This document shows positions 22,312 to 62,616 of a DNA stretch of 64,000 nt, in pieces (position 1 is the first letter of the stretch; every line of letters begins with the position of its first letter). Source of the DNA: Chthonomonas sp. (lineage in GTDB: Bacteria > Armatimonadota > Fimbriimonadia > Fimbriimonadales > Fimbriimonadaceae); assembly GCA_016788425.1 (NCBI GenBank), contig JAEURQ010000002.1, positions 682,001 through 746,000 of the forward strand, read 5' to 3'. The notes below the pieces were generated by a model. That model saw nothing but the letters and a program-made list of their open reading frames with translations, did not search any database and was not told the origin of the DNA. A program made the translations under genes and the position numbers.

Positions 22312-22338
22312 CGATTTTGAACCTAAATGCTTGACGAT

Positions 22339-42890: not shown

Positions 42891-43492
42891 TGCAATACGT
42901 CCTTGAGTTTTTGCCCTTTCCTGAGTCGGTCAAGCAGGATCGACTGCCGCGACCGAGGGCAACTCCCAAGGAGATCAAGCAGTTTAGGTTCCGATTCGTC
43001 GTTTCGCTCTCGAACCCGGACGCGGAGCGCGTAAACCGACTGGCCATGGCGGCCCGTCTCGGCGATGCCTACGCCGCAGAGCGGTTGATGGGTATTTACC
43101 GCCCGATCGTCGTGCTGATGGCCAACCGGATTTCTGTAGCCGACCTCACGCGTCACGATGTGGTTGGCTGTGCGATGGCGGGGTTTGCCAAAGCGATACG
43201 AACGTACGACGGGCGCGGGGGTACGCCCTTCGATTTCTACGCAAAGCGGTTGGTCTCGAACGCTTTGGCCGAGGTTGTTCGCACGGCGCACCAGAAGCGC
43301 GTGGTGCCTCCAAGTCTGCGTTGTGAGTTTGATGCCGAGGTCGGGAGGGCGGCTGAGACGACTCGCGATGATCGACTCGACGAGATGCGGGCGGCTTGGC
43401 GATCCATTGCCGACTGCTCGCCCGAGGATAGGGCATGGTTGCTCGGAATCCCTCGCCCGATCCTTGATGAATTTGAGCGCGTACTTAACTAG
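42890..43492 (+). CDS. Phage sigma-70 region 2-like protein
   Basis: This 200-residue protein contains DVVGCAMAGFAKAIRTYDGR followed by GGTPFDFYAKRLVSNALAEV and VRTAHQKR, matching sigma-70 region 2 (core binding and -10 recognition). The C-terminal ~60 residues are short and may be a diverged region 4. It is the last gene before the late block, and the first copy of CGTACTT overlaps its final codons. A role as late-gene activator is inferred. Confidence 0.75.
   Translation: MQYVLEFLPFPESVKQDRLPRPRATPKEIKQFRFRFVVSLSNPDAERVNRLAMAARLGDAYAAERLMGIYRPIVVLMANRISVADLTRHDVVGCAMAGFAKAIRTYDGRGGTPFDFYAKRLVSNALAEVVRTAHQKRVVPPSLRCEFDAEVGRAAETTRDDRLDEMRAAWRSIADCSPEDRAWLLGIPRPILDEFERVLN
43480..43486 (+). 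promoter_or_regulatory. CGTACTT motif, before endolysin gene
   Basis: Exact CGTACTT, 8 nt before the ATG at 43495. The spacer (aactagtc) has no Shine-Dalgarno. It overlaps the last codons of the sigma-like gene. Confidence 0.5.
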
Positions 43493-43494
43493 TC

Positions 43495-44040
43495 ATGGCC
43501 CCTGGTCTGACAAAACTGGTTCCACGCCCCGCTCCAAATGCCATCAATAGCGGTCTGTCGTCGCTCAAGGCGGCAACCTTGCTGAAAACACTCGGCCGCC
43601 CGCGGCCGAAGCTCACGAGCAACTGTGAACCCGTGACCAGCTCGGCCATGCGGAAGCGGATTGTGACCGAAGACGTGGGCCCATTTCGCGTCACGGGGCT
43701 GGACATTGCAGTTGACTCCCTGCGCCGGGTGTTCGACGACGTGAGGCGGGAGCGCCCCGATTTATATGACGCCGTCGGCAATATGGGAATGCTTTGCTGC
43801 CGGCTGGTGCGTGGCTCGGCGCACATTGCCAGTAACCATAGTTGGGGTACGGCAATTGACCTCACGTTCAATGGGGTTCTTGACCTGCGCGGCGATGACA
43901 AAGTTCAGATTGGCCTGCTGGCGATTTACCCGTTCTTCCATCGCCATGGGTGGTACTGGGGCGCGGAATTCAACACAGAGGACGGCATGCACTTCGAGCT
44001 CGCCGAAGAAACTTTCCGAAAGTTGGAGTCGGCGCGATGA
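43495..44040 (+). CDS. M15-family peptidase, probable endolysin
   Basis: The 181-residue protein has the zinc-peptidase motifs of the VanY/M15 family: His115 and Asp122 in SNHSWGTAIDL, and His166 in GMHFEL. Such phage enzymes cut D-Ala or L-Ala-D-Glu bonds of peptidoglycan for lysis. It lacks a signal peptide, as expected for a holin-dependent lysin. It opens the late block, and the downstream TM protein overlaps it by ATGA. Confidence 0.92.
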   Translation: MAPGLTKLVPRPAPNAINSGLSSLKAATLLKTLGRPRPKLTSNCEPVTSSAMRKRIVTEDVGPFRVTGLDIAVDSLRRVFDDVRRERPDLYDAVGNMGMLCCRLVRGSAHIASNHSWGTAIDLTFNGVLDLRGDDKVQIGLLAIYPFFHRHGWYWGAEFNTEDGMHFELAEETFRKLESAR

Positions 44041-44357
44041 TGTCTCCAGACCTCAGTTTCATTGGCATTTTGGCCACGGTTATCGGGCTCGTTGGCTGGA
44101 TGGTTAAATTGTCGGCTAAGCGAAGCGAGGCTATCACCGACCGGTTCTTACGCCACCTAGAAGATCAGAACAACAGCAATCAGCAACATCGGGTTGAGTT
44201 TCTGGCGGCGATCCGTGAGCACGCGGCGGCGATGTCTGAGATGGCGGCCCAACAGAAGGAAGTTGCTAGCAAGCTCAGCGATGTTGTGGTTCAGGTACGA
44301 GAGCTCGCCGAAGAAGTGACCCACCTGAAAGCTCGTCAAGGGACAGAACGTACTTAG
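44037..44357 (+). CDS. TM/coiled-coil protein, candidate holin or lysis partner
   Basis: This 106-residue protein has one N-terminal hydrophobic segment (FIGILATVIGLVGWMV), then a coiled coil (AAMSEMAAQQKEVASKLSDV). It overlaps the endolysin gene by ATGA, the usual place for a holin or spanin-like gene. A single TM with a coiled coil also fits other roles, so the call is tentative. Confidence 0.6.
   Translation: MMSPDLSFIGILATVIGLVGWMVKLSAKRSEAITDRFLRHLEDQNNSNQQHRVEFLAAIREHAAAMSEMAAQQKEVASKLSDVVVQVRELAEEVTHLKARQGTERT
44349..44355 (+). promoter_or_regulatory. CGTACTT motif, before 44368 gene
   Basis: Exact CGTACTT, 12 nt before the ATG at 44368. The spacer (aggcggagtgac) contains GGAG. It overlaps the stop of the TM/coiled-coil gene. 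Confidence 0.5.
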
Positions 44358-44367
44358 GCGGAGTGAC

Positions 44368-44655
44368 ATGCCAAAGAAAATTCAAATTGTCACGAAGGAC
44401 GCGAAGTTGGAGGGATTCAGCTTAGTTGGGAATCAGGTGATTGCGGAGATCCCCATTCCGGACGATTACGCAGGCAGGCTCGAAAACCTGTTCCGAATTG
44501 TCGATCGGTTTGATGGGGATGAAGGCGCAACCGACGGCGACATCGATTGCGAAGCCGCAATCCGAGCACGGGTACCAAAACAACTGCGGTTCGTTGAGAA
44601 TCTCACTGGCAAGACCATCGACCTCGACCTTGATCTTGAAGTAAAGATCGTCTAG
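44368..44655 (+). CDS. Hypothetical acidic protein before terminase
   Basis: This 95-residue protein (PKKIQIVTKDAKLEGFSLVG) is acidic (DGDEGATDGDIDCEAAIR) and beta-rich. It lies just before the terminase small subunit. The function is unknown. Confidence 0.7.
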   Translation: MPKKIQIVTKDAKLEGFSLVGNQVIAEIPIPDDYAGRLENLFRIVDRFDGDEGATDGDIDCEAAIRARVPKQLRFVENLTGKTIDLDLDLEVKIV

Positions 44656-44667
44656 CGGGAGGCCCCC

Positions 44668-45162
44668 ATCGCCCACCCGTGGGACAAGCGTCCAGACGAG
44701 AGCCCCAAAGCGTTCGCGGCCTTCCAGAGTTATTTGGAACTCGGGCCGCGGGCGCGTTCTTGCGACGCCGCCTACCGGAAACACAAAGGAAAGGAAAAGG
44801 GGGAAGCGAATTCGTCGTTTCGCGCCTGGTTCCAGCTGTTGGAGTGGGAGAAGCGAGCCCTTGCGTGGGATGCTCACATTGCCACACTTCGTCGGGCTGA
44901 ACTTGAGAAAGTGCACCTTGAACAGGTTGAGGACTTTCATCAACGGCAACGAAAGAAGGCCCAGCTGAAGGATGCCCTGGTTGTCAAACTTGCGGGCAAG
45001 ATCGGGAAGCGGATTGATGATCTGCAGGCCGATGAAATCGAAGTCAAAACCATTGCTCCGCTTCTGAGGGCCATTGCGCACCTCAGCGACTCCGCCACGA
45101 ATTCGGAGGCAACCGCTTTGGGCATTGATGCTCTCGCTGAAATGCTTGAGGAGCCCGATTGA
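44668..45162 (+). CDS. Terminase small subunit-like protein, non-canonical start
   Basis: The frame contains AHPWDKRPDESPKAFAAFQS then YLELGPRARSCDAAYRKH, the typical opening of phage small terminases (HTH for packaging-site binding). It ends in a helical oligomerisation region. From the in-frame TAG at 44653 to a TTG at 44734 there is no ATG, GTG or TTG, yet the family-like sequence begins before 44734. I mark 44668 (ATC, 5 nt after GGGAGG) as a possible start. A conventional annotation would use the TTG and lose about 22 residues. Confidence 0.7.
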   Translation: MAHPWDKRPDESPKAFAAFQSYLELGPRARSCDAAYRKHKGKEKGEANSSFRAWFQLLEWEKRALAWDAHIATLRRAELEKVHLEQVEDFHQRQRKKAQLKDALVVKLAGKIGKRIDDLQADEIEVKTIAPLLRAIAHLSDSATNSEATALGIDALAEMLEEPD

Positions 45163-46679
45163 AATCCAAGCTCGCACGGATTTTTCAGAAACGGGCGGCC
45201 AAGTTGCTTCCGCTCTGCCGGCCGAAGTCGGAATCACCAGTTGAAGTCGAGGCCAAGGCGCTTGATTTTCGGGAGTTTGTCCGGACGGTGTACCCTCGGT
45301 ATCAGTTCCGGCGGGTTCATAACGAGATTCTCAGCGCCCTCGATCAGCTCGAATCTGGCGAGATTCTGAACCCTCTGACGGGTCAACCCATTCGGCGCAT
45401 GATGGTCATGGTTCCACCTCGGCACGGGAAAACGGAGCTGGTGTCCAAGTTATTCCCCGCGTGGTATCTGCGGACGCACCCGACGAAGTGGGTGGCGGTC
45501 ATCTCCTACTCGGCGTCGCTCGCCTATTCCATCTCGAAGATCGCGCGCGGCTACTACACGCGAAGTGGGGGTCTGCTCGATCGCACGATGCGGGCCATCA
45601 AGCAGTGGTGTACCGAGCACATGGGTGGTTTATGGGCCTCAGGTGTTGGCGGCGAGGCGACCGGCAAAGGCTGGCACCGTGGAGTCATCGATGACCCGAT
45701 CAAGAACGTTCAGGAAGCAACATCGGCGAGGTTCAAGACGAGGCTCCGCGAGTGGTACCAGGCGGTCTGGTCCACTCGGCAAGAAGAGGACCCCATCGAG
45801 ATCATTGTTCAGACGCGCTGGGCGGACGATGACCTATGTGGGTGGCTCTTGGACGAAGAGCGACGGCAGATCGAGGAAGAAGGAATTGCCGACGGGTGGT
45901 ACATCGTGTTTTTGCCGGCGATTTCCATGCCGGCTGACCAGGTGCCGGCGTGGCCATCCAGTTGTATAGCTCATCCGGAGTGGCGGGAGCCGGGCGAGGC
46001 CCTGGACCCTGAGAAGTACCCGATCGACAAGCTGGACCGGCTCCGCGTTCGAATAGGGGAGTTCTTTTTTCGTGCTCTTTATCAGCAGTGCCCGACCTCG
46101 CGCGGCGGCGACGTGTTCGACGTTCGCAAAATCGAGATTGTTGACGAGGTGCCGCGTGGCCTCAACAAGGCAAGGGCCTGGGACAAGGGAGCTACGCGCA
46201 ACTCAGGCGACCACACGGCCGGCGTTCGAATGGAAGGGCCGGATAAGCACGGTTTCTACTATCTCTGCGACCTTGTTCGTGGGCAGTGGGAGCCCTACAC
46301 TAGAAATCAGCGAATCCTTGCCACTGCCATCATGGACGGTAGGGGGGTCCCGGTTTTCGGGCCACAGGACCCGGGCCAGGCGGGCGTGATCGATGCCGAG
46401 CAGTTTGTCGAGTTGCTCGCTGGGTTCAACGCCAAGTGCCGACCGGTGAGTGGCGCAAAGCTGCTGAGGGCGTCTCCGCTGGCCGCGCAGGTCAACGCGG
46501 GCAAGGTCCGAATGGTGCGCGGCATGTGGAACAAGGCGATGTTGAGCGAGTTCCAGCAATTCAAGGGTGAGTCTGGCGACACCGACGACATTGTCGACGC
46601 GGCGGCCGATGCTTTCAATGAGCTCGCGGATATGAAGCTCAGCGGGCGGCGCACATTCGAAGTGGGCGGAAGTCGGTAG
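45159..46679 (+). CDS. terL: Terminase large subunit
   Basis: The 506-residue packaging motor has Walker A in MVPPRHGKTELVSKLF, a Walker B region near GVIDDPIKN, and a C-terminal RNase H-like nuclease (RAWDKGATRNSGDHTAG; TDDIVDAAADAFNEL). It pumps DNA into the prohead and cuts concatemers. It starts at a TTG overlapping the small terminase stop (TTGA). Confidence 0.96.
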   Translation: MKSKLARIFQKRAAKLLPLCRPKSESPVEVEAKALDFREFVRTVYPRYQFRRVHNEILSALDQLESGEILNPLTGQPIRRMMVMVPPRHGKTELVSKLFPAWYLRTHPTKWVAVISYSASLAYSISKIARGYYTRSGGLLDRTMRAIKQWCTEHMGGLWASGVGGEATGKGWHRGVIDDPIKNVQEATSARFKTRLREWYQAVWSTRQEEDPIEIIVQTRWADDDLCGWLLDEERRQIEEEGIADGWYIVFLPAISMPADQVPAWPSSCIAHPEWREPGEALDPEKYPIDKLDRLRVRIGEFFFRALYQQCPTSRGGDVFDVRKIEIVDEVPRGLNKARAWDKGATRNSGDHTAGVRMEGPDKHGFYYLCDLVRGQWEPYTRNQRILATAIMDGRGVPVFGPQDPGQAGVIDAEQFVELLAGFNAKCRPVSGAKLLRASPLAAQVNAGKVRMVRGMWNKAMLSEFQQFKGESGDTDDIVDAAADAFNELADMKLSGRRTFEVGGSR

Positions 46680-46683
46680 AAAT

Positions 46684-46690
46684 CGTACTT
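46684..46690 (+). promoter_or_regulatory. CGTACTT motif, before portal gene
   Basis: Exact CGTACTT, 10 nt before the ATG at 46701. It is fully intergenic. The spacer (ttccggtttg) has no Shine-Dalgarno. Confidence 0.55.
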
Positions 46691-46700
46691 TTCCGGTTTG

Positions 46701-48026
46701 ATGGCTTCGAAATCCATGGCCCAGCTCGCGCGAGAGTTTATCAGCGGGCACCCGATTGGCACGCTCCTTTCCTTGCGCGGAATTCTGGGCCCACACTCGA
46801 CCGTAATCACTCCGGATGTAGCGCGGCGCATGATGCTCGATCCCATCGTGTCCGGCTCGGTTCGCCTGCTTCAGGTGCTGATCTTGTCCCACACGCTGGC
46901 CAATGGCTTCAGCGTCGTTGCGAAGGACCAGGACGATGCCGAAAGCGTGGCGATCGCGGAGTTTGTGCAGGAGCAGATCAACTCCATCAACTTCTTTGCC
47001 CCTTGTTTGGAGATGGTCCGGAAGATGTTGGTGGAGGGCTATGGCATCGCGGAATCCGTGTTTGAGCTTGCCGGGGACTCGCTTGTTCTGAGAGCGGTCA
47101 AGCCAAAATCGAGCACCCTCGTCGGGTTCGTTGTCGATGAGTTCGGGAACATCAAGGGGTTCAGGTCGGCGAAAAATTCAGACTTGATTCCGGTGGAAAA
47201 ATTCTGGTGGGTGTCGCACGACGGAGGGCTGGAGGACAGCCCGCAAGGGGCAAGTGCGCTCGAACCAGCTTACAACTATTGGTACTTCAAAACCTCGCTC
47301 TTGCCGGAGTGGTTCAAGTTTCTTCAGCAGTTCGGAACTCCTGGGCTTGTCGGTCGAACCCCGGACGAAGCGCAGGAGGAACCCCAAATCGACGCCGATG
47401 GCAATCCGGTTACCGATGGAGACGGTAACGAACTCATGGTCACTGCCGAGCAGGCATTGCTTCGAGCCCTTCTGGCGTTCGGCAATTCGACTGCTCTGGC
47501 GTTGCCTCATGGGACGGAGGTCGATTTTCTCCAAAGCGAGGGCGATGGGGCAGCATTTTTGGCCGGTCACTCGTATGCGGATCGACAGATCGCAACGGCT
47601 ATCCTGGGCAGTTCACGCACCACGCTTGAGGCTGAGCACGGAAGCAAGGCGGATTCAACCAGTGGTAACGAAGTTACGCAAGCAATCGTTGCTAAGAACC
47701 GACTCATAATACAAGAATCAATCGAACAGTGCCTACTGAAGGTGCTGGTGGAAGCGAATTTTGGGCCGGGTAAGCCGGTTCCGCGGATCGTGCTCTCTTC
47801 GAGCATCGTCGCCAACCGAGTCGAGATGATCAAGGCGGGGGTGGCGGCGTTGCAGGCTGGAATGCTGACGATCGAAGAGGTTCCTGACTTCTGCGCGATG
47901 GTCGGTTTACCCGTTCCGGATATCGAAAAGCTGCGCCAGGCGCAAGAAGATTCCGACATGGTGGCGAAGCTGATCTCGGGTGAAATCGGCAAAGCGACAA
48001 ACCCAGACCCGGATCCACAGCAGTGA
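46701..48026 (+). CDS. Portal protein (DUF935, Mu gp29-like)
   Basis: The 441-residue protein has the DUF935 portal pattern: LARDPIV-like stretch RRMMLDPIVSGSVRLLQVLI, GYGIAESVFEL, and AILGSSRTTLEAEHGS with the Asn/Ser-rich C-terminal region. The portal dodecamer forms the DNA entry vertex. I chose the ATG at 46701, but a TTG directly before it is possible. It is coupled by GTGA to the MuF-like gene. Confidence 0.93.
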   Translation: MASKSMAQLAREFISGHPIGTLLSLRGILGPHSTVITPDVARRMMLDPIVSGSVRLLQVLILSHTLANGFSVVAKDQDDAESVAIAEFVQEQINSINFFAPCLEMVRKMLVEGYGIAESVFELAGDSLVLRAVKPKSSTLVGFVVDEFGNIKGFRSAKNSDLIPVEKFWWVSHDGGLEDSPQGASALEPAYNYWYFKTSLLPEWFKFLQQFGTPGLVGRTPDEAQEEPQIDADGNPVTDGDGNELMVTAEQALLRALLAFGNSTALALPHGTEVDFLQSEGDGAAFLAGHSYADRQIATAILGSSRTTLEAEHGSKADSTSGNEVTQAIVAKNRLIIQESIEQCLLKVLVEANFGPGKPVPRIVLSSSIVANRVEMIKAGVAALQAGMLTIEEVPDFCAMVGLPVPDIEKLRQAQEDSDMVAKLISGEIGKATNPDPDPQQ

Positions 48027-49630: not shown

Positions 49631-49866
49631 CAGTCGCAGAAAGATTTCGCAAGCTACCCGAAGGCACTAGTATGCTGTCGGAAGGTCGCAACTCATTTGC
49701 GCCGCTTCTTGATCTGAACCGAGCATGGCTCGACGACTCAGTCTACATTCGGATGTTAGACGAGAGCTTTACTTTTGAGATTCCGCCCAGCGATATGAAC
49801 CTATTTTTCGAAATGTGGCTCATTGAAAACGTGCACGGCGGAGTTGATCCGCGCACGTCCTCCTAG
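49627..49866 (+). CDS. Small acidic protein after MuF-JAMM gene
   Basis: This 79-residue protein (TVAERFRKLPEGTSMLSEGR ... ENVHGGVDPRTSS) is acidic overall and has no known motif. It overlaps the MuF-JAMM stop by ATGA, the position of immunity partners in MuF polymorphic-toxin loci. It could equally be an unrelated head gene. I do not recognise the family. Confidence 0.65.
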   Translation: MTVAERFRKLPEGTSMLSEGRNSFAPLLDLNRAWLDDSVYIRMLDESFTFEIPPSDMNLFFEMWLIENVHGGVDPRTSS

Positions 49867-49870
49867 GCTT

Positions 49871-49877
49871 CGTACTT
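49871..49877 (+). promoter_or_regulatory. CGTACTT motif, before SGNH hydrolase gene
   Basis: Exact CGTACTT, 8 nt before the ATG at 49886. It is intergenic. The spacer (gattgggc) has no clear Shine-Dalgarno. Confidence 0.55.
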
Positions 49878-49885
49878 GATTGGGC

Positions 49886-51184
49886 ATGCTGTTCAACTCA
49901 GTTTTGCCCGGAGACCTTCGCAACCCTAGCCTGGCCCATGTAGCCGAGACTGCTCGGCATTGCCGAAACCTCAATGCGTTAGCGCCGCTTATGACCGCGC
50001 TCGGCAAGAAAAAGGCGACGGTCGCGGTTCTCGGGGACTCAAACACAAAGCGGTTCGGCCTCGACACGCCGGACAGCGGTTGGTTCGAAGTGTTGATCGG
50101 CGAGCTTCAGGGCATTTGCGGATTTGGCGGAGCTGGGTTCCTTGCGGCGGCGACCATGGGCGGTTCAGAGGATGCCACGAGTTACACCAACCAGTTCAGT
50201 GTGGCGGTGCCGGCCAATTCGGTGGACTGGACGCCCAATGCGGCGGCTGGGACCGGCTATAACGGGCGATGGATTGAAGCGTGGGGCGCATCTGTCGCCA
50301 GGTTGAAGGCGGCGGAAGCCGTGACCATGTCAGTCACGACAAGCCGGGGGCGATCTCGAGCAACGCGGGTAGGAGTCGTGACACTCAACAAGAATGGCGC
50401 AACGATCACCCAGCCGTACACGGTTTCGGGTGCGACTACGGCGAGTGGAAACCTCACCCTGCCGGCGGTCAATGATGCTTCCTTGCGAGTCGACTGGATC
50501 ACGCTCACTCCAGGAGTTAACACCATAACGCTGGGGCAGCCATCGGGCGGTGACCCGTGGATTTGCGGATTTCTGTTTGATCAGGGCGACGCATCCAGCG
50601 GTGTTCTTGGCTACAACTTTGCGCATCACGGAATTCGACTCATCGATGACGGTGGGAGTAGCGCGGGCTATTGGCGGGCGAATCTGGTTACGGGGATTGC
50701 GAACCACTTCAACACCTTGAAGTCGGATCGAGTTCTCGATTGCATGATCTGCAACGCGGGACAAAACGACATTGGTAGCAACGCGAGCACAGTTGAAAAC
50801 TTCGTCGCCGCTTACCGTGAGATAGCAACCCGAGCGCAAGCCGCAGGCGGTTGCGTATTAGGGCTGCAGTCCCAGCGAGTTCACCTCGCAAACGGCTCAA
50901 CCCTCACATTTGAACAAACACGGGCGGCCATGGACCAGGTGGCGGACGAATTCCCTAACGTGTTCGCAGTTTATGACGAGTGGGCGCACCTCGGGTTTGA
51001 AGAGTTTCAGCCAGCCAACCGAACGATCAGCGCGGTGACCGTGGCCGGAAACGCGGCGGCAAAGGGATGGCGATGGGACGACATCCACTATTCGCAAGGG
51101 TTTCACTACGGGCGTGCCAATCGAATGATGCAGGTTCTGATGGCGGCCGAGATCGCGAACCAGGGAATGGCGTCGAGGATTTAA
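49886..51184 (+). CDS. SGNH/GDSL-like hydrolase
   Basis: The 432-residue protein has block I VAVLGDSNTKRFG (Gly50, Asp51, Ser52), block III AGQNDIG (Asn294) and block V WDDIHYS (Asp398, His401), a complete SGNH esterase set. A beta-rich insertion lies at ~residues 95-235. It has no signal peptide and sits between head genes, so it may be a virion-borne or capsid-associated esterase, for example against O-acetylated surface sugars. I chose the ATG because it has the standard spacing from the CGTACTT motif. Confidence 0.82.
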   Translation: MLFNSVLPGDLRNPSLAHVAETARHCRNLNALAPLMTALGKKKATVAVLGDSNTKRFGLDTPDSGWFEVLIGELQGICGFGGAGFLAAATMGGSEDATSYTNQFSVAVPANSVDWTPNAAAGTGYNGRWIEAWGASVARLKAAEAVTMSVTTSRGRSRATRVGVVTLNKNGATITQPYTVSGATTASGNLTLPAVNDASLRVDWITLTPGVNTITLGQPSGGDPWICGFLFDQGDASSGVLGYNFAHHGIRLIDDGGSSAGYWRANLVTGIANHFNTLKSDRVLDCMICNAGQNDIGSNASTVENFVAAYREIATRAQAAGGCVLGLQSQRVHLANGSTLTFEQTRAAMDQVADEFPNVFAVYDEWAHLGFEEFQPANRTISAVTVAGNAAAKGWRWDDIHYSQGFHYGRANRMMQVLMAAEIANQGMASRI

Positions 51185-51188
51185 CCGC

Positions 51189-51518: not shown

Positions 51519-51530
51519 TCGGACCCTCAG

Positions 51531-51537
51531 CGTACTG
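51531..51537 (+). promoter_or_regulatory. CGTACTG variant motif, before 51549 gene
   Basis: CGTACTG differs by one base from the motif and lies 11 nt before the ATG at 51549. AGGG is in the spacer. Intergenic. Confidence 0.4.
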
Positions 51538-51548
51538 TTCAGGGTGCG

Positions 51549-51698
51549 ATGATTATCAAACTCTTTGATCAGCACGCTGAATTTATTGAGGAGCTGAGCA
51601 TTTCTGAAGAACAAGCTCCGGCGGAGCTCGCGCACGACGGCAGGACTTATGTCCACGGCGGCGCTAGCAGCTACACGGAAAAGGTGGCCGCCGAATGA
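51549..51698 (+). CDS. 49-residue hypothetical protein before protease/scaffold gene
   Basis: This small gene (IIKLFDQHAEFIEELSISEE) starts 11 nt after the CGTACTG variant and overlaps the next gene by ATGA (51695-51698). The product is helical then Gly/Ser-rich. It is probably a small head-assembly protein. The function is unknown. Confidence 0.7.
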   Translation: MIIKLFDQHAEFIEELSISEEQAPAELAHDGRTYVHGGASSYTEKVAAE

Positions 51699-52891
51699 GG
51701 ATTTCGTTCGACACCATCACCGATCTCATTCGATCCAAGCTCCGGGCCGGGATCGCGAACTCGGACAACTGGCCGTGGATCCGAGATGTTTATCCTGATG
51801 CGTTCGTGTACCAGCTTGATGGTGCCTACTATGAGCGGACGTACACCCTCGGGGAAGATGGTGCCCTCACCTTTGGCGAGCCGACCCCGGTTGTCATCAG
51901 CCGTGAGTACGTGCCCGTCACCGGCTTCTCCGTCACGGCAAACGCCGACGGAACGGTCGACCTGTATGGCCGCGTGTTCCGCATGGGCAACTACCCGGAC
52001 AAGAGTTTTGCTCTGACCGACCCCGCTGAGGCCGACGCCATGATCAGCCGGTTCAACGCCCGCGGCGGCTGTAAGAACGGACTCGAGCACAAGGTAAAGA
52101 CCGTCCTCGGCCACGAGTTAGGGACGCTCAATAAATTGGAGCGGATTGGCACTGAGTTCTGGGGCACGATGCGGCTCCCGGCGTGGCTGTCGAAACTAGG
52201 CGACAAGGAGTTGGGCCCCGACTCGGTTCAGACCTCGCTGGAATTCGCGGTCGGACTGTCTGGAACCGGTCAGCGCGATATCGTTGGCAATGCACTCACG
52301 TTTGATCCGAGAATCGAGGATGCGACCCTCGTTGCATTTGCGAACGGTCCTGTCCCTGAGCGTACTAAATCGGCTGACATGGACGAAAAGGGATTCTTCA
52401 GCAAGTTGGCGGCCCTCTTCGGTGCGGCTGCCAGTGATGGTACTCCAGCTCCGCAACCGGTGCCGCCTGCTCCTACTACGTCGCCGATTTTTTCGGCTGA
52501 CCCGACCACTGATGAGCTTCGCAAGCGCGTTGCCCTCCAGGACAAGGCCCTGATTCAGGCACGGGCACGAGCATTTGCGGCTGAGCAGATCGCAGCGAAG
52601 AAGGTGCTTCCAGCGGAACTGAGCAACGTGGAATCGATGTTCGCGGCCGCATTGGAATCTGATTCGGCGGGAGCGGTTAAGTTTGCCGCAAACGGTGAAA
52701 TCGAGGAAGGCCCGATGTGCAAGGCGATCCGGGAAAACTTCTCGCTTCGAGCCGAACACAAGCTCACTACGGAAGCGATCCCGGCAGGGCAATCGCAAAC
52801 CGAAGAGCAGACGCTCTTTGCCAAGGCAGAGCCAAATCAGGATTTGCCGATCAGCGTTGATCTGAAGCAATTCAAGGGAGGAATTCGATAA
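51695..52891 (+). CDS. Prohead protease/scaffold-like protein
   Basis: The 398-residue protein has a beta-rich N-terminal domain (VYPDAFVYQLDGAYYERTYT), a segment with GLEHKVKTVLGHELG and DSVQTSLEFAVG that could hold a His/Ser pair of a maturation protease, a Pro/Ala-rich linker (~residues 240-270), and a helical C-terminus like a scaffold (KALIQARARAFAAEQIAAKK). It precedes the decoration and capsid genes, the normal place for a protease-scaffold. The catalytic assignment is uncertain. Confidence 0.7.
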   Translation: MRISFDTITDLIRSKLRAGIANSDNWPWIRDVYPDAFVYQLDGAYYERTYTLGEDGALTFGEPTPVVISREYVPVTGFSVTANADGTVDLYGRVFRMGNYPDKSFALTDPAEADAMISRFNARGGCKNGLEHKVKTVLGHELGTLNKLERIGTEFWGTMRLPAWLSKLGDKELGPDSVQTSLEFAVGLSGTGQRDIVGNALTFDPRIEDATLVAFANGPVPERTKSADMDEKGFFSKLAALFGAAASDGTPAPQPVPPAPTTSPIFSADPTTDELRKRVALQDKALIQARARAFAAEQIAAKKVLPAELSNVESMFAAALESDSAGAVKFAANGEIEEGPMCKAIRENFSLRAEHKLTTEAIPAGQSQTEEQTLFAKAEPNQDLPISVDLKQFKGGIR

Positions 52892-53364: not shown

Positions 53365-53368
53365 GAAC

Positions 53369-54493: not shown

Positions 54494-54516
54494 GAACTCA
54501 CTCCACGACCTCGATT

Positions 54517-54548
54517 GCCGCCGCGACTTGACTCGCGGCGGCCTTTTT
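54517..54548 (+). terminator. Rho-independent terminator after major capsid gene
   Basis: A perfect 10-bp stem (GCCGCCGCGA / TCGCGGCGGC) with loop CTTGAC is followed by CCTTTTT. The T tract ends exactly where the CGTACTT motif begins (54549). Confidence 0.9.
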
Positions 54549-54555
54549 CGTACTT
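54549..54555 (+). promoter_or_regulatory. CGTACTT motif, directly after capsid terminator
   Basis: Exact CGTACTT, 11 nt before the ATG at 54567, with AGGTGAT in the spacer as a Shine-Dalgarno. The gene must be transcribed independently of, or by readthrough from, the capsid gene. Confidence 0.6.
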
Positions 54556-54566
54556 GAGCAGGTGAT

Positions 54567-54974: not shown

Positions 54975-54977
54975 GTC

Positions 54978-55765: not shown

Positions 55766-56172
55766 TCGAGGCCGTGATCAATTGCCTGGAATTGAAACTG
55801 CGGCCTGTTCTGCCCGCAGGGGTGGGCTTGTATGGCTATCCCGGGCCAAAGGCCAAACAACCGGTTGCGGTGATCCACAAGTTCATCAACGGTCAGGCGG
55901 ACTACTTCCTGGGAAATGTTGAGCGGTCAGTGGACATCGTGGTTGAGGTTGCGGTTGAATCGGTCTCGGAAAACATCACACCTGTGCAGGAAATGGCGGA
56001 CCTGATGCACCGGACGATCATGTCCATCCGGTCGTTTTCGACTGAGTACGGCATTATTGCGGATGTGTTTCGTATGGCGCCGGTGAACTATCCAATTGAT
56101 TTGAACGGCAAGACGGTCCAGCACCTGGGCGGCATCTACAAGTTCAACGTTCGCCCCCTGCCACCAGAGTGA
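55762..56172 (+). CDS. Tail terminator-like protein
   Basis: This 136-residue protein (EAVINCLELKLRPVLPAG then VEVAVESVSENITPVQEM) has the alpha/beta pattern of tail-terminator (lambda gpU-like) proteins. ATGA overlap upstream. The assignment is by order and fold pattern. Confidence 0.65.
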   Translation: MIEAVINCLELKLRPVLPAGVGLYGYPGPKAKQPVAVIHKFINGQADYFLGNVERSVDIVVEVAVESVSENITPVQEMADLMHRTIMSIRSFSTEYGIIADVFRMAPVNYPIDLNGKTVQHLGGIYKFNVRPLPPE

Positions 56173-56609
56173 GGATCAAGGTCAAGATGAACCGGATTCC
56201 GGAGTTGGCGAACGCCACGCCGGAACTTCGTGACGCTTGCGCTCGCGCTGTTGGATTTGCGCTGCAGGAGGAAACGGTCGAGCAGATCCGGAGCATGGGA
56301 GCGGTGGACACCGGGGCCATGATGAATTCGGTCTATCTGGAGACCCATTCGATGAGCGAGCGGGGCGCCGCCGTCAGTGCGGCCGCGACCCGTGCGGGAG
56401 CGGCATCAAAGGAGTTCTTGGAAGCGATTCCCAGCGGGCGGCCCGGCCGGGGAATGTCCAAGGTGGCACTGGCCGCTAACTACGCGGTGTACGTGCACCA
56501 GGGGGCACGAGGGCGGGCGTCCAGGCCGTTCTTGATGGTGGCCGGCCAGAATGTCAGCGGCCAGGCGCGACGGATTGTAGCGGGGTTGGTTAAGGAGTGG
56601 GCAGGCTAA
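56169..56609 (+). CDS. HK97 gp10-like tail-completion protein
   Basis: This 146-residue protein has the HK97_gp10 pattern: TGAMMNSVYLETHS, then SKVALAANYAVYVHQGARGR and SRPFLMVA. It starts at a GTG in a GTGA overlap. Its stop overlaps the stop of the minus-strand methyltransferase-nuclease gene. Confidence 0.85.
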   Translation: MRIKVKMNRIPELANATPELRDACARAVGFALQEETVEQIRSMGAVDTGAMMNSVYLETHSMSERGAAVSAAATRAGAASKEFLEAIPSGRPGRGMSKVALAANYAVYVHQGARGRASRPFLMVAGQNVSGQARRIVAGLVKEWAG

Positions 56610-58255
56610 ATTCGCAGTTTCCCTTGAATTCGGTACCGCGATGGTCGAATGTAGTATCCATCCGGAACAGCAAGTCCCACTTCCTTTTGGAGTAGTTGTT
56701 CTATTGGCAACATTTGAAGCCGAGGCACCTTGCGTCCTGCCGATTCCACTGTGCCCAAACTTAGGGCTTCTTGCTCCATGCCTCGCGTTGGGCGTTCGAG
56801 CGTGATGAGTGCGCCGATTGGAGCCTTCTCCCGCTCGATGACATGCGCAAAGTCGCGTACAATGCTCGGGTTGAGTCCTCCCCCTTTGACCTGAATCGGA
56901 GCGATGCTTGTGTCGTGAATCGTTGACTCAAGCCACAGATCGCCATCGATTCCGCGGTCGCCCCCCTTCTTTTCCCTTGGCTGACCGTTGACCAACCCGA
57001 CGGCCCACATTTCGAATTGCTTGTGACTATCCTTTCGCGTCAAGTTGAAGAACTCACGAGCCGCGTCCAGATCAGCGGGCAGCCCCTCAACTCGGAAATC
57101 GGTGCCTTTCTCCAACCCAAACTCCTCCATCAAGCGTTCTTCAATCTCATTGATGGCCAAGAATGTCACGTCGATCCCGATCCACTTCCTCTTGAGCTTC
57201 TGAGCGGCAGATACTGTTGTTCCGCATCCGCAAAATGCGTCGAGCACAACATCGCCCTCATCGGATGAAGCCTCGATTATTCGCTCCATAAGGGCGACCG
57301 GCTTTTGGGTTGGATATCCCCTCGCCTCTCCACTTCGACCGGCGGACTGCAATGGTGGAATGTCTGACCAAATGTTTGATACAACCTGCCCTTGTAGCTC
57401 TTCGAGATATCGCTTCAGTCTGAGTCGCTTCTTTGTATCCGGGCGCCCATCGAGTAGCTTAGGGATGTGAATTCGCCCTGCAATGTCCAATTTCTCCATT
57501 GTTTCCAATGAGTACCGCCATCCGCGGGGAGGAGGATCGAATCCTTTGTACTTGTACCAACCGTTCGGAAGCCCCGTGGCTTTATTGATCGCGGCCATGC
57601 CACCACCTGCAGGTGCAGACATATCTGCAAGTTGGTACTTGCCTCGCCCGTCATGGTCATCGTGTCTGTAGAAACTCCTTACGTAGTCGGGATCGTGAGG
57701 GCAAAAGACCGGCCGGAACTTGACCCGATCAGACTTACCGTAGAAGAGAATCGTATCTGATACGTTGGCAAACTTTAACTTTGCGTCGCTGTGAGCACTT
57801 TGGCGCTTCCAAACAATTTCGTTTCGGAAGTTTTGTGCTCTAAAAACGAGGTCGCAAACGAGTTTTAAATAATGGCTAGCCGCAGGATCGCAGTGAAGAT
57901 AAAAGGACCCAGTTGTCTTCAACTTGTACGAAAGGCTCAGAATCCTTGGAGCCATTGCCACCAAGTAAGCCATCATTTCAGACTCACCGATAAGGTCGTA
58001 AAGGACATCAAGCAGTCGGCGCAACCGTGGGTGATCACATGTCTGCTGGAACTCTTCCATGGCGGTCGGGTCCCACTTCCATGTATCCTCGAACGCCATG
58101 ATTTGAGCTGGTGACGGATCGCCTCTGACTTGCTTGAACAGCAGGTTGTACTGCCTCGCAGAATTGAATGGTGGATCAATGTAAATGAGGTCCACAGACT
58201 CATCCGCAACGCGATCCAGCATTTTTAGATTGTCGCCAAAGTACAACGTGTTCAT
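56606..58255 (-). CDS. DNA methyltransferase fused to PD-(D/E)XK restriction endonuclease
   Basis: This 549-residue polypeptide carries an adenine methyltransferase with motif IV DPPF (residues 27-30) and motif I DAFCGCGTT (339-347), in beta-class order. Its C-terminal ~130 residues carry an Mrr-like nuclease: GGDRGIDGDLW (Asp437) followed by IAPIQVKGGG (Gln455-Val-Lys457). Modification and restriction would therefore lie in one protein. It is on the minus strand inside the tail module and convergent with the gp10-like gene. A 100-bp gap separates it from the rightward tape measure. Confidence 0.88.
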   Translation of the reverse strand: MNTLYFGDNLKMLDRVADESVDLIYIDPPFNSARQYNLLFKQVRGDPSPAQIMAFEDTWKWDPTAMEEFQQTCDHPRLRRLLDVLYDLIGESEMMAYLVAMAPRILSLSYKLKTTGSFYLHCDPAASHYLKLVCDLVFRAQNFRNEIVWKRQSAHSDAKLKFANVSDTILFYGKSDRVKFRPVFCPHDPDYVRSFYRHDDHDGRGKYQLADMSAPAGGGMAAINKATGLPNGWYKYKGFDPPPRGWRYSLETMEKLDIAGRIHIPKLLDGRPDTKKRLRLKRYLEELQGQVVSNIWSDIPPLQSAGRSGEARGYPTQKPVALMERIIEASSDEGDVVLDAFCGCGTTVSAAQKLKRKWIGIDVTFLAINEIEERLMEEFGLEKGTDFRVEGLPADLDAAREFFNLTRKDSHKQFEMWAVGLVNGQPREKKGGDRGIDGDLWLESTIHDTSIAPIQVKGGGLNPSIVRDFAHVIEREKAPIGALITLERPTRGMEQEALSLGTVESAGRKVPRLQMLPIEQLLQKEVGLAVPDGYYIRPSRYRIQGKLRI

Positions 58256-58339
58256 TGCCTGCCGCCGAAAGAAGGCGTTTTACCCAAGTTTTCCAAGGCG
58301 AAGCAATATGTGCGGACTTGTCCACTAACAGCCGCAAGG

Positions 58340-58346
58340 CGTACTT
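58340..58346 (+). promoter_or_regulatory. CGTACTT motif, before tape measure gene
   Basis: Exact CGTACTT, 9 nt before the ATG at 58356. It is intergenic and restarts rightward transcription after the minus-strand gene. The spacer (agcctagcg) has no Shine-Dalgarno. Confidence 0.6.
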
Positions 58347-58355
58347 AGCCTAGCG

Positions 58356-61300
58356 ATGGCCACCCGCGTCGCTGAACTGGAAGTACTGCTCGAAGCTGAT
58401 ACGAAATCCCTGGAACAGGGGATGGATCGGGCGAACAAAGCCATTGATGGGGTGAGCAAGCGCGCTAACAAGGGCGGAAGGTCGCTCCAGGAATTCGGTA
58501 ATAGCACTTCAGCCGCGGGGCGTGACCTGATGGCGTTCTCCGCTCCAATGCTCGGTGCGCTCGGATACATCGGCAAGGTTGCTGCAGACTTCGAGAAGGT
58601 TCAGAACGAGATCCAGGCGGTTGCTGGTCTCACTGCTTCGCAAATGGAGGCGGTCTCGGAAAAGGCGCGACAACTTGGTGCAGACCTTACGCTCCCTGCG
58701 ACCAGCTCGACGGATGCCATGCAGGCGATGCTTGAGCTGTCGAAGGCCGGACTCTCCGTGGTCGACACCATGGAAGCCTCACGTGGCGTCCTCTTGCTCT
58801 CGGCTGCCGGCGCCATCTCGAACGCTCGGGCAGCCGAAGTCGCGGCCAATGCACTGAACGCGTTTCAATTGAGCGGTGATAAGGCGGCAATGGTGGCCGA
58901 CGCGCTCTCCGCCGCAGCCAACCGCTCATCTGCCGGAGTCGATGACTTGGCCCAAGGTTTCCAGGCGGGCGCGGCAGTGGCCAACATGTACGGGCTTACC
59001 GTGCACGAATTCACAACGACCCTAGCGGCGATGGCCAATGCCGGTATCAAGGGGTCCGACGCCGGCACCTCTGTGAAGGCCATGCTGATGGCCCTCACTC
59101 CAAAAACGTCGAAGGCAGCGGAGGCGATGGCCGAGCTCGGGCTCCAGTTCTACGACGCCGCAGGCAAACTCAAGCCGTTCCCTGACATCCTGTCGAACCT
59201 TCATTCGGTGCTCGAACCAATGACCCAGGAGCGCCGCAACTCGGTGATGAGCATGATCTTCGGCTCCGACGGTGTCCGGGCGGCCAGCATACTGTTCCAA
59301 CTTGGTCCGAAAGGGTTTGCTGACCTGGCCGGGGGCATCAGTCAAGCGGGCGCCGCCGGTGACATGGCCAGTGGCAAGCTCAAAGGGTTTGCCGGAGCGT
59401 GGGAGCGGCTGAAATCGGTGACGCAATCAGTAGCTGAAGACCTTGGTTCCAGAGTGCTCGGACTCGCGACCCAGGTTGTCGAAGGAGTTTCGCAGATGAT
59501 CGCCGTGGTGAGTTCTTTGCCGGAGCCGGTGCAGAATGGCATCCTGGTGTTCATGGGGTTGGTTGCGGCAGCGGGCCCTGTTTTGATGGCAATTGGATCC
59601 ATGGCGACGGGGCTATCGGCCCTTGCTCCGATTCTGGCGGCTTTGACGGGGCCGATTGGTTTAGTGGTGGCGGGCGTCGCCGCACTTGCGGCCGCGTTCG
59701 CGACCAACTTCGGTGGCATTCGCGATGCGGTGATGCCGCTGATCCACGAAGCAGCTCCCCAGTTCTTGGCCGCGTGGGAGAATGTGAAAGAGTGGATGGT
59801 GACGGCGTGGTCGGGATTCTCCGCAGAGGTTGCGTCATGGTTCGAGCCGGTTGTCGCCTGGTTCAAAGAGAACTTGCCCGATATTCAGCGTACGGTCGAG
59901 ACTGTGCTGACGACGATTCAAGAATTCTGGAAGGCGCATGGTGAGGACATCACGGCCACGGCCAAATTTGTGTGGGATCTTATCAAGTCGATTGTCGGCA
60001 CTGTGATGCAGGCGATTGGCAACATTATCAAGGTTGTGATGAAGGTCATTCAAGGTGACTGGAAGGGGGCTTGGGAAGTCATCCGGCGCTACTTTGCTGA
60101 CCTGTGGACGGGAATCCTGGGCGTCCTTCAAAAGGCAGTCGTTGCCATATCTGGACTGATGGTTACGCTGTGGAACATGATCAAGGATGCGGCGGGCCGA
60201 ATCTTCCATGCGGCCGTTGACATTGGCAAAAACATTGTCGAGGGCATCAAGCAAGGGTTCATGCGTGTTTGGGAGGGTGCCAAGAAGTGGATGCGAGACC
60301 AAATTACTGCCTTTGTTGAAGGAGTTCGGGGCGTTCTCGGCATTCGTTCACCTTCCAAGGTCTTTGAAGAAATCGGGGGTTACGTCGTTCAGGGCTTTGT
60401 GAACGGGATCGAGGCGGGTCTGGCTCGCATGTTTGAGGTTGGCCGGGCCATGTCGCTCGCGGCTCGGGCGGGGCTGGATTCGGTGCCGCTTACGGGGCTG
60501 GACGCACTGGAGAAGGCGGTGGAGCGGGCTGAGGACCGAGTCGTTCAAATGAAGACGGCCATTGCCGAGGCGATGGACCCGGTTCGAAACGGGCTGGCCA
60601 AATTTGTCGGGCTCAGCCTATCGGAATGGAAAAAGCTGGGCGACGGGATGCAGAAGAAGCTGGTTGGCTTAAGGTTCATGCAAGCTTTGAAGGAAGGCAA
60701 GCTGACATGGCTCGGCGGTCTTGGTCCCTATTCCGGTCCGCTACCGAAGGTACCGGAGCCCGAGACGCCGGCATTGGTTGACACCACTCGGACGTTGGAT
60801 CAGTGGCAGCTCCTGAATCAGCAGATCCACGATGATTCGATGAAGATGCGCGAGGACCTGTATGACACGTTCACGAAGCTCTTTGACGATATTCTGGGTG
60901 GTGGCTTTAAGAACCTATTCGGAACCATCCAGCGGACGATCAGCAACTTTCTGCTCCAGCAGGCTCATGCCGGGCTCTCGGAGCGATTTGGGAGCTGGCT
61001 GGGCGGGGCGTTGAACATTCCGGGATTCGGCGGGGGAATGAGTCCGGTTCCAGTTGGTCCGATGGGCGGAATCTTTGCGGCAGCGATGTCGATTCCTGGT
61101 TTGCTTAAGCGTCGCTCGGTCGGGGGACCGGTTTCAGCTGGCGACACGGCCCTGGTGGGCGAGGAGGGTCCTGAGGTAGTGCAGTTTGGACGCTCTGGTT
61201 CGGTTACGAGCGCCCGGCAAACGGCGGCGCTGGCCGGTAGCAACAACATCGTGGTGCACATCCACATCAATGCGATGGATGCCGGGTCGGTGGTTCGGAG

Positions 61301-61361
61301 TTCAAAGCAGGTCGCGCAGCAATTCGGGAATGCTATCCGCGATGCCATGGGGAACAACTAG
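58356..61361 (+). CDS. Tape measure protein
   Basis: This 1001-residue protein has the TP901 tape measure signature in its N-terminal third (KARQLGADLTLPATSSTDAM and AAEVAANALNAFQLSGDKAA). The middle has several hydrophobic segments (~residues 385-450) and Trp-rich helices. The C-terminus ends with a glycine-rich stretch, then VVHIHINAMDAGSV. Tape measure length sets tail length, and 1001 residues suggest a long flexible tail of roughly 150 nm by the usual 0.15 nm per residue. Its stop overlaps the next gene (TAGTG). Confidence 0.95.
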   Translation: MATRVAELEVLLEADTKSLEQGMDRANKAIDGVSKRANKGGRSLQEFGNSTSAAGRDLMAFSAPMLGALGYIGKVAADFEKVQNEIQAVAGLTASQMEAVSEKARQLGADLTLPATSSTDAMQAMLELSKAGLSVVDTMEASRGVLLLSAAGAISNARAAEVAANALNAFQLSGDKAAMVADALSAAANRSSAGVDDLAQGFQAGAAVANMYGLTVHEFTTTLAAMANAGIKGSDAGTSVKAMLMALTPKTSKAAEAMAELGLQFYDAAGKLKPFPDILSNLHSVLEPMTQERRNSVMSMIFGSDGVRAASILFQLGPKGFADLAGGISQAGAAGDMASGKLKGFAGAWERLKSVTQSVAEDLGSRVLGLATQVVEGVSQMIAVVSSLPEPVQNGILVFMGLVAAAGPVLMAIGSMATGLSALAPILAALTGPIGLVVAGVAALAAAFATNFGGIRDAVMPLIHEAAPQFLAAWENVKEWMVTAWSGFSAEVASWFEPVVAWFKENLPDIQRTVETVLTTIQEFWKAHGEDITATAKFVWDLIKSIVGTVMQAIGNIIKVVMKVIQGDWKGAWEVIRRYFADLWTGILGVLQKAVVAISGLMVTLWNMIKDAAGRIFHAAVDIGKNIVEGIKQGFMRVWEGAKKWMRDQITAFVEGVRGVLGIRSPSKVFEEIGGYVVQGFVNGIEAGLARMFEVGRAMSLAARAGLDSVPLTGLDALEKAVERAEDRVVQMKTAIAEAMDPVRNGLAKFVGLSLSEWKKLGDGMQKKLVGLRFMQALKEGKLTWLGGLGPYSGPLPKVPEPETPALVDTTRTLDQWQLLNQQIHDDSMKMREDLYDTFTKLFDDILGGGFKNLFGTIQRTISNFLLQQAHAGLSERFGSWLGGALNIPGFGGGMSPVPVGPMGGIFAAAMSIPGLLKRRSVGGPVSAGDTALVGEEGPEVVQFGRSGSVTSARQTAALAGSNNIVVHIHINAMDAGSVVRSSKQVAQQFGNAIRDAMGNN

Positions 61362-61678
61362 TGGCAACTTCGCTCCGCGAGCCTACCGTCTTTGAGCTCG
61401 GCATGATCGAGGCCATGGACCGGCTCGAAGTTGCGACGTCGATGAGTGACCAGAATGAAGCGCTCCTCGCCATGCTTGAATGCCTTGCTGCAAGACTCTA
61501 TCCGGAGGGATTTGATTTTGTGTTCTTCAGCAGCTATTCGGATCGGGTCAATGGAACCGAAGGTTCGCTTCGGTTCAAGTGCGCCAACAATACCGAGTTG
61601 CATGGATTGCAAGCGCGCCTTGCCGGGTGGATTCAGGACGAGCTCACGGAGCTTCGGGAGCAAGAGAAATCTGATTGA
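61361..61678 (+). CDS. Hypothetical tail-region protein
   Basis: This 105-residue product starts at a GTG overlapping the tape measure stop (TAGTG). It is helical then beta (LYPEGFDFVFFSSYSDRVNG) with an acidic tail. It could be a tail assembly protein. The family is not recognised. Confidence 0.65.
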   Translation: MATSLREPTVFELGMIEAMDRLEVATSMSDQNEALLAMLECLAARLYPEGFDFVFFSSYSDRVNGTEGSLRFKCANNTELHGLQARLAGWIQDELTELREQEKSD

Positions 61679-61708
61679 TGCCTGAATGGGGCTGAACCGG
61701 CCCGATGC

Positions 61709-61715
61709 CGTACTT
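61709..61715 (+). promoter_or_regulatory. CGTACTT motif, before GH5 gene
   Basis: Exact CGTACTT, 10 nt before the ATG at 61726. It overlaps an upstream in-frame ATG (61705) and so decides the start. The spacer (gtcccttttg) has no Shine-Dalgarno. Confidence 0.5.
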
Positions 61716-61725
61716 GTCCCTTTTG

Positions 61726-62616
61726 ATGAGACGCGTTCTACTAATTCTCCTAACTGTCCTTTCCATTTCGCTGGCCCATGGGTTTGTTGATGTGGGGGCG
61801 GGCGTGTCCCTCGGATGGAAGCCGGATCGGGCAAAAATTGCTGAGATTCATGAAGCAGGATTCAAGTTGCTGCGGTTGCCGTTTGACTCGAATCCGGACG
61901 TCGAGCTGGTCAAGGCGGCGACCTCGAAAGGTCTTCGGGTCGTCGTCGATTTTCACCCTCCGCTTTCCTGGTACTCGGACCCTTTTGCCATGTTTGACCT
62001 GCCGGGGAAGTGGTCGAGATGGGCAAAGCAACTGCAGGGAATTTCGAGTGATGAACTAGCGTTTGAGGTCCTCAATGAACCGAGGGCGGCGAAGCGAGGC
62101 CCGGTATACGACTCGCTCATGGTTGCCTGCATTGCGGCAATCCGGGAAGTTTCTCCTTCGCGCTGGATTGTAGTTTCTAACCCGCAACTTTCTGATATTG
62201 ATTGGTTTGCCGGACCCTTGGGAAATTGGACAGCCCCTCAGTACGACAGACTCATTGTTCCGCTACATTACTACCGGCCGTACGAAGTGACCCATCCGGC
62301 GAGTTACCGTGGCCAAGTCGGCCCAGACACCCCGGTGGGGGGAGGGACTAAGTTTGACCTTTCGGATTGGTCGAACCGTGAACTTCATTTCCAACGCTAT
62401 GTGAACTGGTGCCGCGAGAATCGTGTGCAGGCATGGCTTGGCGAAGCTGGGTGTTATGAGTCGGTGCCAGGCAGGCTTACTTGGTTCAGCGAAGTGGCGA
62501 AGTTGGCTCGTACCTACTCGGTTCCAGTTTGCTGGTGGGGTTGGCGCGATCGGTTCGGCTATCGGCCCGAGCAAAAGGACGCTGCTTCAGTTCTCAAGGT
62601 CATGCTGGATCGGTGA
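61726..62616 (+). CDS. Secreted glycoside hydrolase, GH5-like
   Basis: The 296-residue protein has a signal peptide (RRVLLILLTVLSISLAHG) and a cellulase-like TIM barrel. The acid/base Glu118 is in FEVLNEPR, the nucleophile Glu240 is in WLGEAGCYE, and HYYRPYEV lies in between. GH5 enzymes cut beta-glucans, mannans and similar polymers. The signal peptide suggests export by the host, so it could help the lysogen or the phage degrade surface polysaccharide. I chose the ATG at 61726 because it gives a clean signal peptide and the standard CGTACTT spacing. Confidence 0.85.
   Translation: MRRVLLILLTVLSISLAHGFVDVGAGVSLGWKPDRAKIAEIHEAGFKLLRLPFDSNPDVELVKAATSKGLRVVVDFHPPLSWYSDPFAMFDLPGKWSRWAKQLQGISSDELAFEVLNEPRAAKRGPVYDSLMVACIAAIREVSPSRWIVVSNPQLSDIDWFAGPLGNWTAPQYDRLIVPLHYYRPYEVTHPASYRGQVGPDTPVGGGTKFDLSDWSNRELHFQRYVNWCRENRVQAWLGEAGCYESVPGRLTWFSEVAKLARTYSVPVCWWGWRDRFGYRPEQKDAASVLKVMLDR

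Follow-up and report, generated by a model that had tools for sequence, protein, structure and literature searches.

A start-codon-adjacent CGTA element and a diverged sigma factor gene as a proposed late-gene switch of Armatimonadota phages

The window analysed here is a stretch of 64,000 nt (contig positions 682,001-746,000) of the 2.67-Mb genome of Chthonomonas sp., in which the late genes of a probable 50-kb prophage are repeatedly preceded, a few nucleotides before their start codons, by the heptamer CGTACTT. From 44.7 kb on this late region holds the terminase, portal, capsid and tape measure genes, and at its upstream end lies an open reading frame (ORF), at 42866-43492, that encodes a diverged sigma factor and carries the first CGTACTT in its last codons. 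With gene starts picked mechanically, the sigma gene and the start-proximal sites of the window phage are the following.

42866-43492, + strand: phage sigma factor gene, 208 aa from a TTG start, with a diverged sigma-70 region 2 and no recognised region 4
43480-43486, + strand: CGTACTT, 8 nt before ATG 43495 (M15 endolysin), within the 3' end of the sigma gene
44349-44355, + strand: CGTACTT, 12 nt before ATG 44368
46684-46690, + strand: CGTACTT, 10 nt before ATG 46701 (portal)
49871-49877, + strand: CGTACTT, 8 nt before ATG 49886 (weak GDSL/SGNH-like match)
51531-51537, + strand: variant CGTACTG, 11 nt before ATG 51549 (49-aa ORF that opens a unit with 51695)
52361-52367, + strand: variant CGTACTA, 11 nt before the in-frame internal ATG 52379 of ORF 51695-52891
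54549-54555, + strand: CGTACTT, 11 nt before ATG 54567
58340-58346, + strand: CGTACTT, 9 nt before ATG 58356 (tape measure), behind a DNA methylase gene of the opposite strand
61709-61715, + strand: CGTACTT, 10 nt before ATG 61726 (GH5 family)
64984 (L002:984), + strand: eighth start-proximal CGTACTT, 9 nt before ATG 65000 and just outside the window

CGTACTT occurs nine times in the window, every copy on the + strand, against a mean of 2.63 copies over both strands in dinucleotide shuffles, of which none in 100 reached nine. The late region (42860-74000) has nine copies on the + strand and none on the - strand, and no copy is present on either strand between 33300 and 42860. No other 7-mer of the late region reaches as low a p value in the zone upstream of starts as CGTACTT, six of whose nine copies lie there (p 1.2e-7). 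Two copies lie away from starts, at 63521 within a tail gene and at 24594 in the left arm, and the ATG at 52379 behind the CGTACTA variant is a possible nested start, perhaps of a shorter product. A sequence-only reading of this DNA had placed the motif 8-12 nt before seven late ATGs and the one-base variant CGTACTG before 51549; the measured distances (8, 12, 10, 8, 11, 9 and 10 nt, and 11 nt for the variant) bear this out. Its estimate that such a 7-mer would turn up about once per strand in 20 kb was too high, as the shuffles imply about 0.4 copies. The motif precedes eight of the nine late genes that are separated from their predecessor by at least 10 nt (51549 being counted through its variant) and only one of the 15 that follow more closely or overlap (43495, 2 nt behind its predecessor; Fisher 1.0e-4), which confirms the described preference for non-overlapping genes. 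The reported lack of a Shine-Dalgarno sequence in most spacers was also found, with 44368 as an exception (AGGCGGAG).

Relatives of the window phage were sought with its terminase in 113 genomes of the class, of which 26 matched, and stretches were fetched from 14 of the other 25. Five other phages share one layout, in which a sigma factor gene is followed by late units with CGTA 9-14 nt before the start: four are prophages of the same bacterial family, namely G016 (Fimbriimonas metagenome-assembled contig CAMCVK010000014.1), G012 (which agrees with Fimbriimonadaceae CP075364.1), G023 and G060, and one is a metagenomic viral contig (L302). Exact 7-mer enrichment was uninformative as a motif finder in these relatives and gave no clear motif, because every phage has its own variant, and the CGTA core was recognised by reading the upstream sequences by eye. 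The element is CGTAANCGG in G016, CGTANTTGG or CGTANTGGG in G060, CGTAGTTGG and kin in G012, and CGTANNGGG in G023. Behind the fixed CGTA the continuations are thus phage-specific (CTT, ANCGG, TTGG, GGG), and outside the window the element takes the form CGTA-NNN-GG, as it does at all eight sites of L302. CGTA stays constant while the proteins and the flanking motif bases diverge, the relatives' terminases being only 29-47% identical to that of the window. The gap from CGTA to the start codon is 9-14 nt in the relatives, nearly all values being 9-12, and 11-15 nt in the window. The hosts of G016 and G023 belong to one genus (g6) and yet the two motif variants are different; the variant therefore follows the phage.

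The position of the first motif is equally constant, at 34 nt or less from the end of the sigma ORF in all six phages; it overlaps that end in L302 and begins 4 nt past it in G023. In the window and in G012, G060 and G023 the gene that follows the sigma gene encodes an M15 endolysin, and in G023 the position of the first motif suggests that the endolysin starts at a GTG 54 nt into the ORF as originally listed. The sigma genes of G012 and G060 were guessed from their position, after which Sigma70_r2 proved to be the only Pfam family that either of them matches, and that of G023 was found by profile.

The product of 42866-43492 is a diverged sigma factor on the basis of its region 2 in PHROGs (sigma factor family PHROG 351, 7e-5), a sub-cut-off Pfam match, a profile search and its predicted fold. 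Sigma70_r2 is matched above the Pfam cut-off by G016 (3e-9), G023 (6e-8) and L302 (1.6e-5) and below it by the window protein (6e-4), G060 (0.00033) and G012 (0.0019), and a region 4 profile match is absent in five of the six sigma proteins. The predicted model of the window sigma has a mean pLDDT (predicted local distance difference test) of 53.5, with values of 70-85 in the region 2 helices and below 50 in the C-terminal part. Residues 47-150 match the fold of sigma chains with Z up to 12.7, and the 50 fold matches listed are by title all sigma factors or polymerase complexes; since Z under about 13 may be unspecific for helical folds, the sequence profile is given more weight than the fold. 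With Foldseek alone the best match of the window sigma had E 0.0058, short of the 0.001 threshold; 50,697 phage records searched by tblastn with the G016 sigma gave nothing at 1e-3, and back-translated sigma patterns, from a single protein or from a profile, found no relative among viral contigs. The window protein is proposed to be the late sigma factor of the phage.

The association between this sigma family and the CGTA signal was examined by ranking all 256 4-mers 8-15 nt before the ATG or GTG of mechanically picked ORFs. CGTA ranks 4 in the window, 2 in G016, 2 in G060, 3 in G012 and 1 in G023, and its count is 0 in the stretches that lie before the sigma genes of G023 and G060 (L110, L121). 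No CGTA enrichment before starts was found in nine other terminase contigs of the class, and five further prophages with common capsid or tail genes had neither sigma nor CGTA in the fetched stretches. An out-of-sample test on 28 viral contigs found by tail and capsid profiles gave a sigma match in L302 only (1.6e-14; whole ORF 1.9e-31) and a CGTA signal in L302 only (7 seen, 1.1 expected, rank 2); the window terminase as sole query had found no relative in viral contigs. Among 160 terminase loci outside the class, a strong sigma match together with the CGTA signal was seen only in L124, which duplicates G016, and in L181, which duplicates G012 (CGTA rank 5, p 0.008). Around six further sigma matches (L114-L119) there was no CGTA signal, and around that in L120 there was a weak one (3 seen, 0.5 expected). 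The search of related phages that the sequence-only reading had proposed speaks for that reading, the signal being found in phages with a related sigma.

GG stands three bases after CGTA at 52 of the 57 sites outside the window, counted before any site was dropped by hand, compared with 63 of 617 other CGTA in the same regions. The pool used for alignment numbers 52 sites: 56 found by rule, minus six dropped by hand as non-fitting or intragenic (among them G023 20607, which does obey the GG rule), plus two window sites that the gene picker had passed over. No column of this pool passes the 0.99 threshold over the 50 nt before CGTA; a -35 element was therefore discarded as a candidate, only CGTA and the downstream columns being conserved. 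Shine-Dalgarno 4-mers precede 7 of the 52 motif genes and 5-mers one of them, against 12% and 3% of random host positions, so that Shine-Dalgarno sequences before motif genes are at chance level. Under a laxer rule, accepting any of the first starts, the 5-mer is found before 36 of 144 other phage genes and 3 of 45 motif genes.

Some divergent neighbours, with only 27-33 nt between their start codons, each have their own CGTA, placed back to back, one pair within TTACGCGTAA; if real, these pairs would be very compact two-way promoters. They are listed here with the terminator-like feature of the window.

L091 9729-9757: divergent back-to-back CGTA pair
L106 11377-11411: divergent back-to-back CGTA pair
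L106 17898-17932: divergent back-to-back CGTA pair
54517-54548, + strand: terminator-like hairpin and T run (z -4.35), behind the capsid gene and abutting the CGTACTT at 54549

A terminator also lies 17 nt upstream of the G016 motif at 14503, and one was recognised by eye at the L302 motif at 11175, where the strict scan had missed it; this case and that at window position 54549 are both behind a capsid gene. The motif at L002:984 has a weak hairpin only (z -1.8). The tape-measure motif sits behind a methylase gene of the opposite strand and, taken with the divergent pairs and the terminators at motifs, this arrangement calls for local promoters. The same features bear on a function in translation, by which the element would act in the mRNA, binding the ribosome or a factor, on long late transcripts that come from elsewhere. 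Such a function would fit the tight spacing to the start codon and has a precedent in the Start-Associated Sequences of Cluster K phages (PMC3203893), but it is quite unlikely given that each gene of a divergent pair has its own motif, that a terminator ends at a motif, that the tape measure gene lies behind an opposite-strand gene and that the motif co-occurs with a sigma factor; moreover, the overlapping genes need translation too and are without it. An array of operators, binding a phage repressor or an antitermination factor instead of acting as promoters, is suggested by the likeness between the asymmetric, uniformly oriented repeats of the late block and the stoperator arrays of other phages. 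This is a most improbable explanation in view of the start-codon spacing, the tie of the motif to unit-opening genes and its co-occurrence with the sigma factor, and the + strand between 44200 and 64000 is without a TTGACA/TATAAT-type promoter to control (three found, all on the - strand; 6.3 expected).

CGTA is a common -10 sequence of extracytoplasmic function (ECF) sigma factors. This likeness, and the many sigma genes of the host genomes, would allow a host sigma factor, for example of the ECF type, to read the motif, the phage sigma-like protein being merely accessory; of 291 genomes from the phylum, 286 have a match at 1e-6 to a profile built from the window sigma and three relatives, and we take these matches to be host sigma factors. 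However, in 400 kb of host DNA CGTA before starts ranks only 91 of 256 (17 seen, 14.6 expected); the sequence-only reading had named absence of the motif before host genes as support. CGTACTT as a host-wide signal was rejected, CGTACTT-N6-12-RTG being no commoner in the whole host genome than its reversed pattern (32+30 against 34+27). The motif is also missing from related phages that lack the phage sigma, and the two phages whose hosts share a genus use different variants, all of which makes reading by a host sigma very unlikely. Another signal was found in the host stretches L021-L040, where 24 of 277 starts have TANNNT at a distance of exactly 6 nt, against nine or fewer at any other distance. 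This shows what reads as the signature of leaderless genes with ORF-adjacent -10 regions, a pattern reported as such in Deinococcus-Thermus (PMC12340547). Because of this resemblance, host ribosomes probably accept leaderless or near-leaderless messages.

The evidence is best accounted for, with a probability of roughly 0.8, if the motif is a -10-type late promoter element read by the phage's own sigma factor, with the mRNA starting at or near the start codon. The two halves of the earlier proposal, a late promoter or a leaderless-start signal, would thereby be joined, and both are favoured by the sequence comparisons; the adjacent upstream sigma gene, the CGTA core across related phages and the leaderless signature of the host are additions to it. 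From the arrangement described above we infer the binding of the motif by the sigma factor, the transcript start, the late timing and the leaderless translation. In the proposed sequence of events, the host polymerase would make the early genes, with the sigma factor last among them, and region 2 of the sigma would then direct the polymerase to CGTA (followed by CTT in the window phage and by NNN-GG in the relatives) without a conserved -35 element. Late units would switch on from the gene after sigma onward, with transcription beginning at the start codon or a few nucleotides ahead of it. The first gene of each unit would then be translated from an mRNA with little or no leader, and the overlapping genes that follow would share that transcript. 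If CGTA occupies the position customary for a -10 element, transcription would begin some 8 nt downstream of it, and the predicted leaders would measure about 1-4 nt for the majority of relatives and 3-7 nt for the window phage, or roughly 0-8 nt overall. A wider interpretation, for which the chances appear evenly balanced, is that this phage sigma family gave up -35 recognition and reads a 7-9 bp element adjacent to the start codon. Promoter and translation start would thereby be united in one compact module, late units could be moved or inverted, and specificity would drift from phage to phage.

CGTA is enriched in six of six sigma-positive and in none of 41 sigma-negative relatives (Fisher 9.3e-8), a contrast to be read with the knowledge that the six positives form one lineage and are not independent draws, and that several of the 41 negatives (9 + 5 + 27) are fragmentary. 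These limits weigh against the promoter reading, and so do the observations that follow. Two of the negatives have a sigma-profile match on the same contig but outside the stretch, G026 at about 52 kb from the terminase, in a 386-aa frame, and G028 at about 23 kb (6e-4). L206, L220 and L274, of the 160 terminase loci, have sigma-profile matches (5.7e-8 to 5e-4) without CGTA, and were left out of the table of six and 41. The small terminase gene (44734-45162), with an upstream gap of 78 nt and only a TTG start, is gapped and has no motif. GG is found at none of the nine window sites, which have CTT (eight) or CTG (one) instead, and the window sigma itself matches Sigma70_r2 under the Pfam cut-off. 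Terminators at motifs are rare, the strict scan finding 2 in 66 motifs against 22 in 6000 random places. Finally, G023 alone has weak columns at -25, -8 and -1, and its sigma keeps a helix-turn-helix-like tail (r4_2 0.034, cut-off not reached), which together leave room for a weak upstream contact in this phage.

Late leaders of phage T4 are not known to be tied to the start codon. In its logic T4 late transcription is nevertheless the nearest known system, in which the phage sigma gp55 reads TATAAATA from -13 to -6 (PMC1524935): here as there, a phage-encoded sigma goes with one short -10-region element before late genes, and the 52 pooled sites share the T4-type feature of a single short -10 element without a conserved -35. 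According to the same source, a divergent sigma goes with a divergent element in Aeh1, as among the phages described here, but the T4 element has another sequence and T4 requires gp33 and the sliding clamp gp45 (PMC1524935). Next nearest are phiEco32 and 7-11, where middle and late genes come under the control of a phage sigma, promoters were predicted from genome sequence, and related phages have related, shifted motifs; these are lytic enterobacterial podophages with an anti-sigma factor, whose promoters are not described in that account as abutting start codons (PMC4331800). In Deinococcus-Thermus, too, leaderless mRNAs come from promoters whose -10 element immediately precedes the start codon; it is the host RpoD that works with TANNNT there (PMC12340547), whereas here it would be a phage sigma with CGTA.

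The Start-Associated Sequences are likewise short asymmetric repeats a few nucleotides before some phage start codons, but are described as 13 bp long (GGGATAGGAGCCC), with a Shine-Dalgarno core; they lie 3-7 bp from the start codon, belong to the non-structural half of the genome and were proposed to serve translation (PMC3203893). The element described here has a different sequence, precedes structural genes and comes without Shine-Dalgarno enrichment (5-mer at 1 of 52). In phage AR9 many separate late units are preceded by a short promoter element, AACA-N6-TA/G, which differs in being read by a phage multisubunit polymerase and in its leaders of 26-491 nt; that report also notes that leaders are often missing from phage transcripts, so that a leaderless start is in itself no novelty (PMC5312081). 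Late promoters of Thermus phage P23-45 also depend little on -35 contact, but its middle and late promoters are reported to be of the extended -10 type, with gp39 remodelling the host sigma-A in place of a sigma of its own (PMC7403470). In the open-licence literature, searched by title and abstract, neither this element nor late transcription in Armatimonadota phages was found described. A late sigma encoded by a phage is in itself of a known kind.

The proposal amounts to a complete and testable late-switch circuit for Armatimonadota phages. Under the wider interpretation, each late unit would have a plug-in promoter and be free to invert or move, divergent genes even sharing the TTACGCGTAA palindrome, and specificity would drift phage by phage behind the fixed CGTA. 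The sigma-motif pairs would be natural variants for the study of -10 recognition by region 2 in the absence of a -35, and start-adjacent promoters would represent a compact route to leaderless expression. The motif would also mark start codons for gene finding, as at the GTG of the G023 endolysin.

The motif-preceded late genes are situated inside a prophage whose probable ends, attL and attR, are a 27-bp direct repeat of the tRNA-Ala 3' end, found at 22286-22312 and at 72635 (L002:8635-8661). The region from 35.3 to 42.5 kb holds exonuclease, Gp3-like, FtsK-like and primosomal genes. The integrase gene and the FtsK-like gene are placed as follows.

22376-23518, - strand: integrase
37845-39983: early gene with an FtsK/SpoIIIE-like domain (PHROG 1358, 8e-101)

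The methylase gene lying among the tail genes against the strand of the late region (56606-58255, - strand) encodes an N6/N4 DNA methylase (Pfam 2.9e-39), and two further methylase-like genes are located in the left arm (23695-24759 and 28690-29487, both on the - strand). In the virion block, 49886-51184 gives a weak GDSL/SGNH match (6.7e-4, below the cut-off), and 61726-62616 encodes a protein of the GH5 cellulase family (2.3e-22). Among the terminase relatives, L206 (5931-6518; IMGVR_UViG_3300036715_001968) is a viral contig whose sigma factor is of the ordinary type, having both region 2 and region 4, and which lacks the CGTA signal. Another relative, L198 (Pseudomonas fluorescens NZ_JSAK01000007.1), shows enrichment of CTAG (6 seen, 0.4 expected) and TTAG 8-15 nt before starts, which is perhaps another start-proximal element.

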